Positions 2,542-16,168 of a stretch of DNA of 41,728 nt are shown here, piece after piece. Origin of the DNA: Deltaproteobacteria bacterium (GTDB taxonomy: Bacteria; Desulfobacterota; Binatia; UTPRO1); assembly GCA_005879405.1 (NCBI GenBank), contig VBKW01000036.1:1-41728 (forward strand), written 5' to 3'. The notes under the pieces are model-generated. The model did no database searches, was not told the origin of the DNA, and saw only the letters and a list, made by a program, of their open reading frames with translations. A program made the position numbers and the translations under genes. How positions within the stretch are numbered: position 1 is the stretch's first letter; each line of letters opens with the position of its first letter.

Positions 2542-4772
<2,231 letters not shown>

Positions 4773-4776
<4 letters not shown>

Positions 4777-5431
4777 GGACCCGAAACCACCTTCGCGATC
4801 GACGGTTCTGCGCCCGCCGCCGCAATCACCGAGAGGAAGATCTTGCGCCCGTCCTCGCCGCCGACGAGACGCTCACAGGCGTGCTCCGGGTGCGGCATCA
4901 TCCCGAAGACATTGCCACGCGCATTGCGGACGCCGGCGATCGACGCCAGCGAGCCGTTCGGGTTCGCCTCAGGGTCGCGCCATCGGCGACGTAGCAGCCG
5001 TCGCCGTGCTTGATGGGAATGTCCAGCACGTCACCGCGCCGGCAGCGGTTGGTGAAGAGCGTGTCGGCGTCGTCGACGCGGAGATGCACCCGCGTGCAGA
5101 GGAACGAGAGGCCGCGGTTGCGGATCCGCGCACCCGGCAGGAGCCCGGCTTCGCAGAGAATCTGGAAGCCGTTGCAGATGCCGATGACGACTCGACCCGC
5201 CGCTGCAAAGTCTGCCACCGCGCGCATGATCGGCGAGAAGCGCGCCATCGCGCCGCAGCGGAGATAATCGCCATACGAGAAACCGCCCGGCAGCAGGACG
5301 CAGTCGAGACCGTCGAGCGCCGTATCCTTGTGCCAGAGGCGGACGACGCTCTCGCCGAGCAGGGTCTCGAGGGCGTACGCCGCCTGTACGTCGTCGTTCG
5401 ATCCCGGAAACGTGATGACGCCCCATTTCAT
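4773..5431 (-). CDS. purQ: Phosphoribosylformylglycinamidine synthase glutaminase subunit PurQ, frameshifted
   Basis: Class I glutamine amidotransferase that feeds ammonia to PurL. The first ~150 residues are normal: [14 protein letters not shown], the oxyanion motif [15 protein letters not shown], and the nucleophile elbow GICNGFQ. After [10 protein letters not shown] near position 4985 the frame diverges into nonsense, with a stop at 4898. In another frame the expected tail continues from [16 protein letters not shown] through [13 protein letters not shown] (catalytic His/Glu) to a TGA at 4773-4775 overlapping the purL start. The span of 659 nt is not a multiple of three. Compared with family members, about 15-20 codons between YVAD and NPNGS are missing. 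So both catalytic halves are present but split by a small deletion with frameshift. Because purL and purS are intact and depend on PurQ, an assembly error is as likely as a real mutation. Confidence 0.9.
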
Positions 5432-5474
5432 GCGCGCAGGCCCATTCTAACCATTCGGCCGGGGGCGGCTACCG

Positions 5475-5729
5475 TCACGAGGCTTCGTCGATGGTGAAGG
5501 TGAAGTCTTCGATGACGCCGTTGGCAAGCAGGCGCTCGCACATCTCGCGGACGCGGGTCTGCGCGCTGTCGCGGCTGACGTCGGCGAGGTGGAGATCGAC
5601 GACCTTCCCGATCCGCACGTCCGTGACTTCCGGATACCCGAGGGTGTGCAGCGAATGCTCGACCGCTTTGCCTTGCGGGTCGAGGATGCCTTCCTTCGGC
5701 GTCACGAACACGCGCGCTCGCCACGCCAT
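5475..5729 (-). CDS. purS: Phosphoribosylformylglycinamidine synthase subunit PurS
   Basis: Small partner of the PurLQS complex, thought to bridge PurL and PurQ. The protein has 84 residues, the normal family length, with typical VFVTPKEGILDPQGKAV and VTDVRIGKVVDLHL segments. ATG at 5729. It lies 18 bases after purC and 43 bases before purQ. Confidence 0.96.
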   Translation of the reverse strand: MAWRARVFVTPKEGILDPQGKAVEHSLHTLGYPEVTDVRIGKVVDLHLADVSRDSAQTRVREMCERLLANGVIEDFTFTIDEAS

Positions 5730-5747
5730 GGCGTCTCCGCCCCCGGA

Positions 5748-6461
5748 TCACGCGCCGACGCGGCGCGCGATCTCCTCGTATGCCTCCTCGACGCGGCCGA
5801 GGTCGCGTCGGAAACGATCCTTGTCGAGCTTCTCTCCCGAGCTGCTGTCCCAGAACCGGCAGGTATCGGGGCAGATCTCGTCGCCGAGAATGATCGTGCC
5901 GTGATGGCGGCCGAACTCGAGCTTCATGTCGACGAGGACGATGCCGCGCTCGGCGACGAACGGCCGCAGGACGGCGTTTACCTTCAGCGTGAGCTCGACC
6001 ATGCGATCGATCTCCGCCTGCGTCGCCATCCCGAGGACGCGCACGTGCCACTCGTTGATCATCGGATCGTCGAGGGCGTCGCTCTTGTAGTAGAACTCGA
6101 CGATCGGCTCGGGCAGCGCCTTGCCCTCTTCGATCCCGAGGCGTTTCGCGAGGCTGCCGGCGATGACGTTCCGCACCACCATCTCGACCGGCACGATCTC
6201 GAGACGCTTCACCAGCATGTGGCGGTCGTCGAGGCGGCGGACGAAATGCGTCGGCACCCCCTCGCGCTCGAGGAGACGGAAGAAGACCTCCGAGATGGCG
6301 TTGTTGCGAACGCCTTTCTCGATGATCGTGCCGCGTTTCTTGGCGTTGAACGCGGTCGCGTCGTCCTTGAAGTACTGGAGGAGAAGATCGGGATCGCCGG
6401 TGGCGAAGAGCTTCTTCGCCTTCCCCTCGTAGACGAGCTCTCGCGCTTCCACGTCGCTCAT
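5748..6461 (-). CDS. purC: SAICAR synthetase PurC
   Basis: ATP-dependent ligation of CAIR with aspartate to SAICAR. The protein has 237 residues, standard for the short bacterial form. It starts with ELVYEGKAKKLF and carries FKDDATAFN, EMVVRNVIAGSLAKR and VDMKLEFGRHHG with the LGDEICPDTCRFWD signature. ATG at 6461 overlaps the purB stop by ATGA, so the two are translationally coupled. Confidence 0.97.
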   Translation of the reverse strand: MSDVEARELVYEGKAKKLFATGDPDLLLQYFKDDATAFNAKKRGTIIEKGVRNNAISEVFFRLLEREGVPTHFVRRLDDRHMLVKRLEIVPVEMVVRNVIAGSLAKRLGIEEGKALPEPIVEFYYKSDALDDPMINEWHVRVLGMATQAEIDRMVELTLKVNAVLRPFVAERGIVLVDMKLEFGRHHGTIILGDEICPDTCRFWDSSSGEKLDKDRFRRDLGRVEEAYEEIARRVGA

Positions 6462-7825
6462 CGGATCCCCCCAGGCGTTGCGCGGACGGGCCGCGGCCGA
6501 TCCGCCGGGCCGCGTCGTCGCGTCGAGCGATTGCTACCCAACGCTCGGCGAAAGAGCAAGTCTAAATTCGCGAGATGGCGCGCGGGATCGAGCAGCGCAG
6601 CGATTTGCTGCTTCGTGAGCCGCGTGCGCACCTCGGGCTCGGCACTGAGCGCGTCGGCGAAGCTCGCGCCGCCGTCCCACGCCGCGTGCGCGGCGCGCTG
6701 CACCCAGCGATACGCGTCCTCGCGGCGTGCGCCCGCTCGCACCAGCGCGAGTAGCACGTCCTCCGACAGCACGATGCCGTGGCTGCGCTCGAGGTTCTCA
6801 CGCATCCGCTCGGGGCGGACCACGAGTCCGCCGAGCACCGCAGTCATGCGCGCCAGCATGTAGTCGAGCGCGCAGGTCGCGTCGGGCGCGATCACGCGCT
6901 CGACCGACGAGTGGCTGATGTCGCGCTCGTGCCAGAGCGCGACGTCCTCCAGCGCCGCGCCGGCGTACGCACGCAGGAGGCGGGCCAGGCCGACGGCGTT
7001 CTCGGCGACGATCGGGTTGCGCTTGTGCGGCATGGCCGACGAGCCCTTTTGTTTCTCGCTGAACGGCTCCTCGGCCTCGCCGACCTCGGTGCGCTGTAAG
7101 TGACGGATCTCGATCGCGATGCGCTCGAGGCCGGAGCCGGCGAGCGCGAGCGCGGCGAAGAACTCGGCGTGACGGTCGCGCGCGACGACTTGCGTCGCCA
7201 GCGGCTCCGGCGTGAGAGCGAGCCGTTCGAGGACGTACGCCTCGACCTCGGGTGCCACGTTGCCGAAGACGCCGACGGCGCCCGAGATCTTGCCGACCGC
7301 GACCTGCCGCGCCGCGCGCTCCAGCCGCTCGCGATTGCGGACCGCTTCGGTGTACCAGCCGGCGACCTTGAGGCCGAACGTGATCGGCTCCGCGTGCATG
7401 CCGTGCGTGCGGCCGATCATCAATGTCCGCTTGTGGCGCCGTGCCAACCGACGCAGGGTCGCGATCAAGAGGTCTTGTCCTGCGAGCAGCACGCGCGCCG
7501 CCTCGCGCAGCTGCAGCGCGAAGCCGGTATCGAGAACGTCCGACGAGGTCAGACCGAGGTGGAGGAAGCGGCCTTCCGGTCCCACCGATTCCGCGACCTG
7601 CGTCACGAACGCGATGACGTCGTGTTTCACCTCCGCCTCGAGCGCGGCGATGCGCGCGACGTCGATGCGGCCGCGACGGCGGATGGCCCGGACGGCGGCT
7701 TTGGGGACGCTGCCGCGCGCGGCGAGCGCCTCGCACGCGAGGATCTCGATCTCGAGCCAGTGCGCGTACCGTGCCTCCTCGGTCCAGATCCGTCCCATCG
7801 CCGGGCGGGTGTAGCGGGGAATCAT
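6458..7825 (-). CDS. purB: Adenylosuccinate lyase PurB
   Basis: Acts twice in purine synthesis, splitting SAICAR and adenylosuccinate with release of fumarate. The protein has 455 residues; the family is usually ~430-475. It begins [19 protein letters not shown] and carries the TSSDVLDT region, the [14 protein letters not shown] histidine segment and the fumarase/ASL signature [11 protein letters not shown] near residue 265. The last ~25 residues are an Arg-rich extension beyond the usual end. ATG at 7825, four bases after the M16 peptidase stop, so it is co-transcribed with the pnp group. Confidence 0.96.
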
Positions 7826-11615: not shown

Positions 11616-11703
11616 GTCCTTCTCGTCGACCGTCACGAGTAACATGCACCTGTTGGGATGTAAAGCGAATGCGGCAGCAGGTACTGTCCTACGCTGCCCG
11701 TGA

Positions 11704-11720
11704 GTGTCCTAATTTCCCGC
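11704..11720 (+). repeat. 17-bp direct repeat, left copy (second copy 12140-12156)
   Basis: GTGTCCTAATTTCCCGC occurs exactly at 11704-11720 and 12140-12156. A near copy, GTGTCCTACTTTCCC, is at 11726-11740. The AT-rich core stands out in this GC-rich region and suggests a protein-binding or transposase-end site. Confidence 0.8.
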
Positions 11721-11941
11721 CGCTAGTGTCCTACTTTCCCACGTTGGCCCGTTCGTCCGCTTCGTCAAGGAGTTGTTCGGCTTCGCGACGCGCCTGCGAC
11801 TGACTCCAGCGGAAGCAGGTCGTCAGCAACCGGCGACCTTTCCGCACGAACGCGGCAAGGGCGAGATGCGCGGATCAGGACCAAGCCGCTGGCACAATCC
11901 GCTGAGAGTCATCAAGGGCGGGCGCAAGTAGATTCCTTGCT

Positions 11942-11971
11942 GGCGGCGCGTGGTGCGTGCTACGCGCCGCC
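11942..11971 (+). other. Perfect 10-bp stem-loop upstream of the micro-ORF
   Basis: GGCGGCGCGT (11942-11951) pairs exactly with ACGCGCCGCC (11962-11971) around a 10-base loop. No T-run follows, so it is not a canonical terminator. It sits 50 bases ahead of the 12022 start codon and could be a leader structure or part of the element. Confidence 0.6.
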
Positions 11972-12021
11972 CTCATGGGCAACATGCTCTACTACGGCGA
12001 CAAATCTGAAGGAGAACCTAG

Positions 12022-12117
12022 ATGGTTGATCCGATTTGGTTCTACGTCATCTTCGGCGTGGTCGTGGTCGTGGTGGCGATCCTGATGTGGTGGGCGGGAG
12101 CCTTCAAGAGGCACTAA
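12022..12117 (+). CDS. 31-residue single-pass membrane micro-protein
   Basis: ATG at 12022 is preceded by GAAGGAGA, with AAGGAG eight bases ahead of the start, one of the strongest ribosome binding sites in the window. The frame runs 32 codons to TAA. The product starts MVDPIWFYVIFG, continues through a run of Val, Ala, Ile and Leu (about residues 5-26) and ends AGAFKRH. This is one hydrophobic transmembrane segment with a basic C-terminus, so a positive-inside, N-out topology is likely. It matches no family I recognise; similar-sized single-pass peptides include KdpF-like and small stress membrane proteins, but no partner gene is nearby. It lies inside the repeat-bounded segment and is the only plus-strand gene in the first 25 kb. 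The Shine-Dalgarno plus a clean transmembrane sequence favour a real gene. Confidence 0.6.
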   Translation: MVDPIWFYVIFGVVVVVVAILMWWAGAFKRH

Positions 12118-12204
12118 CCGGACTCCGCCGTCACCCTGGGTGTCCTAATTTCCCGCTCCGGGTGTCTACTTAGGACAGCGCCCGGCAGCAGGTCGTGACG
12201 ATGG

Positions 12205-15204
12205 TCAGCCCTCGCGCGGCGCGAAGCCCTGGCGGATCGTGTTCTCGGTGACGACGCGCGGATCGACGAACTGGAGCAGATAGTCGGGCCCGCCGGTCTT
12301 CGTGCCGACGCCGGAAAGGCCATAGCCGCCGAACGGCTGGCGACCGACGCGCGCGCCGGTGATCGTGCGATTGACGTAGATGTTGCCGGCGCGCAGCGTC
12401 TCGGCGGCGCGGCGTATGCGCGTCGGTGACCGCGAGAAGACGCCCGCCGTCAACGCGTACTCGGTGTCGTTTGCGAGCGCGAGCGCGTGCTCGAAATCGG
12501 CCGCCGGCATGATCGTGAGCACGGGGCCGAAGATCTCCTCGGTCGCGACGCGGCAGCGCGGCCCGTCGACGACGACGATGGTCGGGCCGACGTACCAGCC
12601 GCCGTCCGGCACGTCGTCGCGCGTGTACACGACGTCGCCCTCGACGCGCGCGACGTCGCGGTAGCCGCGCACGCGCCGCCACGCGTCCTCGTCGATGAGC
12701 GGCCCGATTACGGTGTCGAGCGCGCGTGGGTGCCCGAGTGGCAGCAGCGCCGTCGCGCCGACGAGCCGCTCGAGGAGCGCGTCGAGCACGGGCGCGAGCA
12801 CGATCACGCGCGAGGCGGCGGAGCATTTCTGCCCCGCGTACGCGAACGCGCTCGCGACGATCGCCGGCACGGCCTGGTCGAGGTCGGCGTCGCTGTCGAC
12901 GACGATGGCGTTCTTGCCGCCCATCTCGGCCACGACGCGCTTCACCTGCCCCTGTCCTGCATGGTGCGCGGCGCCGCGCTCGACGATCGAGAGACCGACC
13001 GACTTCGACCCGGTGAACGCCACGAACGCGACGTCCGGATGATCGACAAGCGCGGGACCGATCTCCTCGCCGATTCCGGGAAGGAAGGCGAGCGCGCCCG
13101 GCGGCACACCGGCGGCGTGCAACACCTCGACGAGCCGGTACCCGATGCCGGGCGTCTGCTCCGCGGGCTTGAACACGACGCAGTTCCCGGTGACGAGCGC
13201 CGCCGTCACCATGCCGGTCGGGATCGCGAGCGGAAAGTTCCACGGCGCGATGACGACCCCGACCCCGCGCGGCTGATAACGATACGCGTTCGTCTCGCCG
13301 GGCGTCGAGAGCACGCCGGCGCCGCGACCGAGACGAAACGCCTCGCGCGCGTAGTACTCGCAGAAGTCGATCGCCTCGCAGACGTCCGCGTCCGCCTCGG
13401 GTTCCGGCTTCCCCGCCTCGAACACCTCGAGCGCCGCCAGCTCGGCGCGGCGCGCGCGCAGGATCGCCGCGGCGCGGATGAGGACGGCCGCCCGCTCGCT
13501 CCACGGAACGGCCGCCCAGGACGCCGCCGCTGTACACGCGGTCGTCAGCGCGTGCTCGACGTCGCCGACGCCGGCGCGACCGCTCGTGCAGACGAGCGTC
13601 GCGTACGCACCCGGATCGACGGAGCGGATCGTCGCCGTCGTCTGCACTGCTCGGCCGTCGATGACGACGGGCGCGTCGAAGCCGAACGTCGCCGGCGCGG
13701 CCGCCACGGCCGCGGCGAGCGACGCGCGCGCCGCCGGGCGCCGCAATTCGGCGTGAGGCTCGTTCCGAAAGCGCGGCGGCTCCGCGGCGGCGTCCACGAG
13801 TGCGGACCCGGTCGCGATCGGCGCGGCGTCGCGTCCTTCCCGGTCGTCGTCGGCCGCAGCGTGCGCGTCGGGCGGCGCGATCAGCGCGTCGAGAGTGGCG
13901 CCCTCGGCGAAGCGGTGGCGGATGAACGACTCGTTCGACGTATTCTCGAGGAGTCGACGCACGAGGTAGGCCATCCCCGGCACGAGCGCGCCGACGGGCG
14001 CATAGACCCGAACACGGAAGCCCAGACGTGCGAGCGCCGCGTGCACGGGCTCCGCCATCCCGTAGAGGAGCTGCAGCTCGATCGCGGCATCGGGAAGACC
14101 GTGCGCGCGCGCGGCCGCGATCGCGTACGCGAGGCTGCGGACGTTGTGGCTGCCGAATGCCGGCCGCACCGCGCCCGCATGTGCGACGAGATACCGCGCG
14201 CAGCGCTCGTAATTCAAGTCCGTCTCGGCTTTGTGCTCGAATACCGGCACCGGCCACCCCTCCGCCCTCGCCGTCACGGTCTCGACGTCCCAATAGGCGC
14301 CCTTCACCAGGCGCACGTGTAGCGGGAGGCGCAATGTGGCGGCCGACCACGCGACGAGCGCGTGCAGGTCGTCGAACGCGTCGCGGCGATACGCTTGCAC
14401 CACGCAGCCGAGCTGCGGTCCGGCGCGACACTCGTCGCCAAGCGAGCGCAGCAGCTCGAGCGTGAGATCCTTCGCCTCGTCCTGCTCCATGTCGAGATGG
14501 ACCGTCGCGCCGGCGCGGCGTGCGCGCTCGAGGAGCGGATGCAGACGGTCGCGCACGTCCGCCAGGCCGGCGGCGGCGGTGAGCGGCGCGAAGAGCGGCG
14601 AGAGCGCCGTCGGCTTCACCGACACATTCACGCGCGGCACCGTGCCCCACGGATCCTGCTCGAGCCGCGGGTTTGCCGGCCACCGGCGGGCTGTCTTCGC
14701 GAACGTGTCGAGGAGCGCGGCGACACGCGTCGCATACGCGTCCGCCTCACGTCCGGTGATCGTCCGCTCGCCGAGGACGTCGACCGACGATCCTTCGCCC
14801 TTTCGCCATAGCCGCGCGAGCCGCGGCATCGCCTCCGCGGGCGTCGCGCCGGCGATCAGCTGGCGCGCCATGCGGCGGATGTTGCGACGCGCAGCCGCCG
14901 CCGTGACCTGCGCGCCGAACGGCAGATGCGCGGCGACGCCGAGGCCGACCCCGAGCGCAGGCGGCACGTCGATCGTCGCGAAGTAGTCCTCGAGATGGAG
15001 CATGACGTCGCCGTCGTCGCGACAGGCGGGAAAGACGTCGACGAACCGGAAGAGCTGCGTTTTGAACCGGGGATGCGCGAGCGCCCAGTCGAGCATGCTC
15101 TCGCTCCACCAGCTCAGATGGAAGACGCGCGCCGGCTCCGCGGCGCCCGCCGCCGCGATGGTGCGCGCGAGCTCCTGCACCTCGGACTCGGACGGCGCGC
15201 TCAC
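12205..15204 (-). CDS. putA: Bifunctional proline dehydrogenase / P5C dehydrogenase PutA
   Basis: Oxidises proline to glutamate through P5C, passing electrons from FAD to the quinone pool and from the aldehyde step to NAD. The 999 residues match the short, non-DNA-binding PutA type. The proline dehydrogenase barrel spans about residues 130-450, with RLVKGAYWDVE (~301), AFGSHNVRS, LLYGMAE, RVYAPVG and the RRLLENTSNESF substrate motif. The aldehyde dehydrogenase part (about 510-985) has APWNFPLAIPTG, EMGGKN (general base Glu, ~760) and GQKCSAASR (nucleophile Cys, ~793). GTG at 15204. It lies 55 bases after truB on the same strand, between truB and rpsO where these two are normally adjacent, and so looks inserted. 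Confidence 0.96.
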   Translation of the reverse strand: MSAPSESEVQELARTIAAAGAAEPARVFHLSWWSESMLDWALAHPRFKTQLFRFVDVFPACRDDGDVMLHLEDYFATIDVPPALGVGLGVAAHLPFGAQVTAAAARRNIRRMARQLIAGATPAEAMPRLARLWRKGEGSSVDVLGERTITGREADAYATRVAALLDTFAKTARRWPANPRLEQDPWGTVPRVNVSVKPTALSPLFAPLTAAAGLADVRDRLHPLLERARRAGATVHLDMEQDEAKDLTLELLRSLGDECRAGPQLGCVVQAYRRDAFDDLHALVAWSAATLRLPLHVRLVKGAYWDVETVTARAEGWPVPVFEHKAETDLNYERCARYLVAHAGAVRPAFGSHNVRSLAYAIAAARAHGLPDAAIELQLLYGMAEPVHAALARLGFRVRVYAPVGALVPGMAYLVRRLLENTSNESFIRHRFAEGATLDALIAPPDAHAAADDDREGRDAAPIATGSALVDAAAEPPRFRNEPHAELRRPAARASLAAAVAAAPATFGFDAPVVIDGRAVQTTATIRSVDPGAYATLVCTSGRAGVGDVEHALTTACTAAASWAAVPWSERAAVLIRAAAILRARRAELAALEVFEAGKPEPEADADVCEAIDFCEYYAREAFRLGRGAGVLSTPGETNAYRYQPRGVGVVIAPWNFPLAIPTGMVTAALVTGNCVVFKPAEQTPGIGYRLVEVLHAAGVPPGALAFLPGIGEEIGPALVDHPDVAFVAFTGSKSVGLSIVERGAAHHAGQGQVKRVVAEMGGKNAIVVDSDADLDQAVPAIVASAFAYAGQKCSAASRVIVLAPVLDALLERLVGATALLPLGHPRALDTVIGPLIDEDAWRRVRGYRDVARVEGDVVYTRDDVPDGGWYVGPTIVVVDGPRCRVATEEIFGPVLTIMPAADFEHALALANDTEYALTAGVFSRSPTRIRRAAETLRAGNIYVNRTITGARVGRQPFGGYGLSGVGTKTGGPDYLLQFVDPRVVTENTIRQGFAPREG

Positions 15205-15259
15205 GACACCAGCGTAGTCCCGGGGCGGCGCGAGTCGAAGAGGCGACGCGCGACGCTCG

Positions 15260-16168
15260 TCAGCGCGCCATCACCCGTGCGAGACGCCAGCCGTCGTCGA
15301 CCGCCGCCGCGACGGCGATCAGCACGCCGTCCGCGCTCTCGATCCGCACCACCTCGTCCGCCGCGTGCGGTGCGCCGAGCGCCCGCAGCGCCTGCTGCCG
15401 TCCGTCGCGGATGGCGGCGATGAGCGGCGCGTCGGCGACGATCGCGCGAAATCCCGTCATCGCCGCCGACGGCGTGAGGAGCGGCAACGTGCCGCGTGTC
15501 GCTCGCTCCTCGACGTCGTGGAGCGGCACGGCGTCGGCGAGTGAGAACGGGCCAAACGCGGTCCGGCGCAACGTCGCGAGGTGGGCCCCGGTGCCGAGCG
15601 CCGCGCCGAGGTCGTGCGCGAGGACGCGCACGTACGTGCCTTTCGAGCACTCGACGGCGAACGCCAGGCGATCGGGCGCGAGGAACGCCACGTCGAAGGC
15701 GGCGACGTGCACCGGCCGTGCGGCGCGTTCCACATCGTGACCGGCGCGCGCAAGACGGTAGAGCGGCACGCCTTCGCGCTTCAGCGCCGAATACATCGGC
15801 GGCGTCTGCATGATCGCGCCGCGCAGCGGCGCAACGGCCGCCGCCAGCGTCGCCGGCGCAATGGATGGCACCGCGCGGCGCTCCACGATGGCTCCGGTGC
15901 GATCGAGTGTGTCGGTCGTCGCGCCGAGGACGATCTCGCCGACGTAGCGCTTGGAGTCCCCGGCGAGAAATTGTGCGAGCTTCGTCCCCTCGCCTACGCA
16001 AATCGGCAAGAGACCCGTCGCAAACGGGTCGAGCGTGCCGAGATGGCCGACCTTCTGCCGAAGCGTCCGCTTGACCCGCGCGACGACCGCCGCGGAGGTG
16101 AGCCCGTCAGGCTTGTCGACGAGGAGAATCCCGTCCGACTGCCGCGACGTCGAGAGGCGACCCGTCAT
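15260..16168 (-). CDS. truB: tRNA pseudouridine-55 synthase TruB
   Basis: Converts U55 of the tRNA T-loop to pseudouridine. The protein has 302 residues. Catalytic Asp lies in GHLGTLDPFATGLLP near residue 46; also visible are GILLVDKPDGLTS, QTPPMYSALKREGVPLY and CSKGTYVRVLAHDLG. The C-terminus carries a PUA-like segment. ATG at 16168 overlaps the rbfA stop (ATGA). Confidence 0.96.
   Translation of the reverse strand: MTGRLSTSRQSDGILLVDKPDGLTSAAVVARVKRTLRQKVGHLGTLDPFATGLLPICVGEGTKLAQFLAGDSKRYVGEIVLGATTDTLDRTGAIVERRAVPSIAPATLAAAVAPLRGAIMQTPPMYSALKREGVPLYRLARAGHDVERAARPVHVAAFDVAFLAPDRLAFAVECSKGTYVRVLAHDLGAALGTGAHLATLRRTAFGPFSLADAVPLHDVEERATRGTLPLLTPSAAMTGFRAIVADAPLIAAIRDGRQQALRALGAPHAADEVVRIESADGVLIAVAAAVDDGWRLARVMAR

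Follow-up and report, generated by a model that had tools for sequence, protein, structure and literature searches.

Between truB and rpsO, the window (i.e. the whole stretch of 41,728 nucleotides analysed) contains a putA gene (12205-15204) and, adjoining rpsO, a 503-bp segment at 11680-12182 with the termini GGTACTGTCCTA and TAGGACAGCGCC. The motif TGTCCTA is present in the whole window in five copies, four direct and one inverted, all of them within 11685-12177; the mean after shuffling was 0.5 copies, and five were reached in none of 100 shuffles. The left end of the segment (11680-11736, plus strand) consists of GGTACTGTCCTA and three direct boxes at 11685, 11705 and 11727, their spacing of 20 and 22 bp being that found in the related elements L046, L052 and L088 described below. 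The right end (12133-12182, minus strand) comprises the inverted terminus GGCGCTGTCCTA, a box at 12141 and a sixth, degenerate box at 12163 (TGTC-TACTT), the latter being the middle box of this end and lacking one base in an alignment with eleven other right ends. A direct repeat, GTGTCCTAATTTCCCGC, occurs at 11704 and 12140. The initial annotation had described inverted TGTCCTA ends, further direct copies of the box and a repeat pair in a segment delimited as 11685-12177; all these features are real, but the borders lie 5 bp further out on each side, and we set them at 11680 and 12182 because the relatives terminate in GG(T/C)nCTGTC.

Immediately outside these borders lies an exact 8-bp target-site duplication, CGGCAGCA, at 11672-11679 on the left and 12183-12190 on the right; 8-mers repeated identically at this distance are found at 10 of 41128 window positions (2.4e-4). 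The 11-bp copies of CGGCAGCAGGT previously pointed out in the flanks do exist, but they represent this duplication plus three more bases, and the relevant unit is the 8-bp one that abuts the borders exactly. Elements of the IS1 family are characterized by GGnnnTG ends and target duplications of 8-9 bp (PMC10425158 Table 8; PMC6807381), and the window copy shares both properties, with the termini GGTACTG and GGCGCTG and the exact duplication of CGGCAGCA. Elements of the IS21, Tn7 and IS481 types, considered on the basis of the TGT ends and the boxes spaced by 22 bp, were dropped because an IS1-type transposase lies between the same ends.

The frame at 11764-11931 (plus strand) corresponds to approximately 55 C-terminal codons of an IS1-type transposase (ending in KGEMRGSGPSRWHNPLRVIKGGRK and a stop), as judged from its alignment to a transposase fragment from the same genus (L090), which gave the best match (score 67, reached by none of 2000 shuffles). 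Against the transposase of L087 the score was reached by one of 2000 shuffles, and no shuffle attained the alignment score summed over seven transposases. The window copy thus retains only a C-terminal remnant of its own transposase. The respective 64-codon ORF was at first taken for a fragment of a phage terminase small subunit, but a Pfam search returned nothing and the alignment identified it as the transposase C-terminus. The stop is followed by an inverted repeat with 17-nt arms (11935-11978), revealed by a repeat-pair search; no T run comes after it and no intrinsic terminator was therefore called. Promoter and terminator scans found none, and an Rfam search found no RNA. On the 3' side of the inverted repeat, ATGGGCAACATGCTCTACTACGGCGACAA (11975-12003, plus strand) translates to MGNMLYYGD and probably represents the opening 9-10 codons of a gene for a DNA methyltransferase, given its resemblance to the start (LYYGDN) of DNA methylases from this class, although the query for such starts was a generic start sequence that opened with the window's own residues. 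In L053, a locus from the same genus, a related right end is located directly behind an ORF encoding a methylase-endonuclease. The deleted passenger of the window element was thus probably a DNA methyltransferase, a reading that derives from a remnant of only about 29 nt.

The window copy has transposase-bearing relatives in the same class. A pattern representing the right end was matched in eight of 148 genomes of the class (the reversed control pattern in none), and in a phylum-wide sample of 395 genomes it was matched once, again in the same class. Full-length elements elsewhere in the class measure 2.3-3.9 kb, have GGnnnTGTC ends and 8-bp duplications, and encode an IS1-type DDE transposase (PF03400). 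Three of them are complete and carry the transposase gene between exact 8-bp duplications: L046 (3183 bp, CGGTTTGC), L052 (3389 bp, ATAATGTC) and L088 (3901 bp, AACGGCTC), the last found via the transposase search. L046 and L052, which emerged from the sequence surrounding the right-end matches and were recognized by their ends before their flanks were compared, start with GGT(A/C)CTGTCCTA and have left boxes at positions 6, 26 and 48, their right ends bearing two boxes and a third in inverted orientation. The architecture of L088 is the same, and the exact spacing of the boxes (20+22 bp on the left and 22 bp on the right) is common to the window copy and all three.

The transposase search also led to a wider set, in which the ends are of the single-box, GGTAGTGTC-like type and the 8-bp duplications are exact; it comprises L091, L092, L093, L095, L096, L099, L104 and L024, whereas two further delimited relatives, L086 and L048, have no perfect duplication. 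Both borders could be placed for 15 elements, counting the window copy; their duplications match at 8/8 positions in 13 cases and at 7/8 in one, and the remaining element has none. This rate is not unbiased, since part of the wider set came to light in a search for duplications; when flanks were paired across different elements, none of 210 pairs matched. Exact matches to GTGTCCTAATTTCCCG in named genomes are mostly single boxes, and L024 alone yielded a delimited element with a duplication. This element, with an GTGTCCTAATTTCCCG end, occupies positions 4467-6732 (2266 bp) in a metagenome-derived genome of Acidobacteria gp1 and is flanked by exact copies of AACCACTG. A similar pair of box clusters approximately 600 bp apart occurs in a Bradyrhizobium contig (L027, 3648-4283), possibly another element devoid of a transposase. 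Combinations of a multi-box end with a single-box end, or of two end types 36 bp apart, were encountered in L103 (7173 and 7209), L048 (4856-7230) and L049 (857-3147), and these mixed-end elements may be nested insertions or hybrid elements.

The transposases of the full-length relatives match PF03400 (DDE_Tnp_IS1) with 45.9 and 25.3 bits, against a curated cut-off of 24.1. Plasmid proteins about 40% identical to the relatives' transposase carry the annotation 'IS1 family transposase'. The matches to the NCBIfam model NF033558, at 53.5 and 73.5 bits, are significant but stay below its cut-off of 100, and the relatives are therefore placed in a divergent branch. They differ from the IS1 family also in their length of 2.3-3.9 kb, in the presence of passengers and, together with the window copy, in the repeated TGTCCTA boxes at both ends. 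Insertion sequences with passenger genes have been termed transporter IS (tIS; PMC9330008), and the full-length relatives resemble these in holding genes unrelated to transposition between their ends; the window copy, unlike a tIS, contains neither a transposase nor passengers save for remnants. The passengers include, in L052 (4008-4478), a VapD-like protein that matches the Pfam model for Cas2, in L046 (8929-9330) a HARE-HTH protein, and in L053 (129-875) a DNA methylase linked to an endonuclease domain of the Mrr type.

Full-length elements with the same ends, which the initial annotation suggested seeking, exist in other genomes of the class, but none was found elsewhere in the element's own genome. 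The segment occurs once in the assembly, no comparable box pattern was found in the rest of it, and a transposase search that was positive in 48 of the 148 class genomes found no IS1-type enzyme there; the assembly is 96% complete and in 468 pieces, so a transposase copy may have been missed. These results bear on whether the window copy may be a miniature, MITE-like element still moving in trans with a transposase from another copy or strain. It does resemble MITEs and other internal-deletion derivatives of insertion sequences in being short, in having the ends of an autonomous element and a target duplication, and in lacking a transposase (but for the internal remnant). Apart from the one base lost in the right-end box, its two ends and its duplication are fully preserved, and related elements are present in the same genus. 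However, MITEs are expected in multiple copies per genome, and no amplification of this type is seen for the window element because it is present as a single copy; nor was a full copy of it found in 57 relatives. With no transposase found in the assembly either, we regard continued mobility in trans as unlikely.

A strong ribosome binding site (GAAGGAG) precedes a 31-codon ORF with a single likely membrane span at 12022-12117 (plus strand), which had been noticed earlier and is present in the ORF list. Given its position inside the element, and given that passengers do occur in relatives, the element might be a small cassette serving to carry this membrane peptide gene. Yet a homologue search among the 148 class genomes yielded no convincing homologue, only weak matches attributable to membrane spans, and the ORF is located 3' of the second break, surrounded by gene remnants; this explanation thus seems less likely still.

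In a sister genome from the same genus (G001; L107), and likewise in L109, rpsO follows directly after truB, and the similarity of the rpsO leader to L108-L110 (from one related genus) ends at 11668-11675, i.e. at the duplication. Since leader similarity is lost at the element border and rpsO lies directly behind truB in the same genus, the element is an insertion and not a conserved normal leader of rpsO, the outcome that would have spoken against mobility. The empty-site comparison with a sister genome is not clean, as putA is found between truB and rpsO in the element's own genome only; this difference reflects another, independent rearrangement of the locus. The putA-like proline dehydrogenase/aldehyde dehydrogenase gene, which lies in the 12205-16168 region of the window, is absent between truB and rpsO in L107 and L109. 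An ordinary rpsO/putA intergenic regulatory region, in which the repeated boxes ahead of this ribosomal protein gene would be operators, is hardly credible: in other genomes the boxes enclose transposase genes at sites unrelated to this one, together with 8-bp duplications, and they are missing from the rpsO leaders of relatives.

The segment is thus non-autonomous and very probably derives, by internal deletion, from an IS1-family element that carried passengers, in keeping with the earlier proposal of a mobile element without its own transposase: transposase-bearing relatives share its ends, box spacing and 8-bp duplications, and a C-terminal remnant persists inside it. Considering both the definition of the IS1 family and the relatives, its insertion is best explained by the action of an IS1-type transposase. 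The ancestral element would have been approximately 2.3-3.9 kb long, with GGnnnTGTC ends, the repeated TGTCCTA boxes seen here, an IS1-type DDE transposase and passengers. The boxes may be binding sites recognized by the transposase, which would act at the GG/CC termini, and insertion at an 8-bp staggered cut upstream of rpsO would have duplicated CGGCAGCA. The simplest history would start from a left end, a transposase, a methylase and a right end, in this order, followed by internal deletions in which the transposase and the passenger were largely lost. The window copy is probably immobile now, a fossil.

More tentatively, the full-length relatives may represent an undescribed IS1-type branch, in which arrays of boxes spaced by about 22 bp (three at one end; at the other, two and a further one in inverse orientation) would bind the transposase cooperatively, and which would ferry restriction-modification and other passengers, the window copy being a skeleton of such an element. 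We found no description of a long, passenger-carrying IS1 branch in the literature searched. The single element is by itself fairly unremarkable, and the decayed copy has no evident biological consequence except for its position between rpsO and the upstream neighbour. Nevertheless, the case shows how ends and an 8-bp footprint allow a cryptic group of repeats, here in a bacterial class about which little is known, to be assigned to a specific transposon family; it also draws attention to IS1-type elements that combine passengers with multi-box ends.
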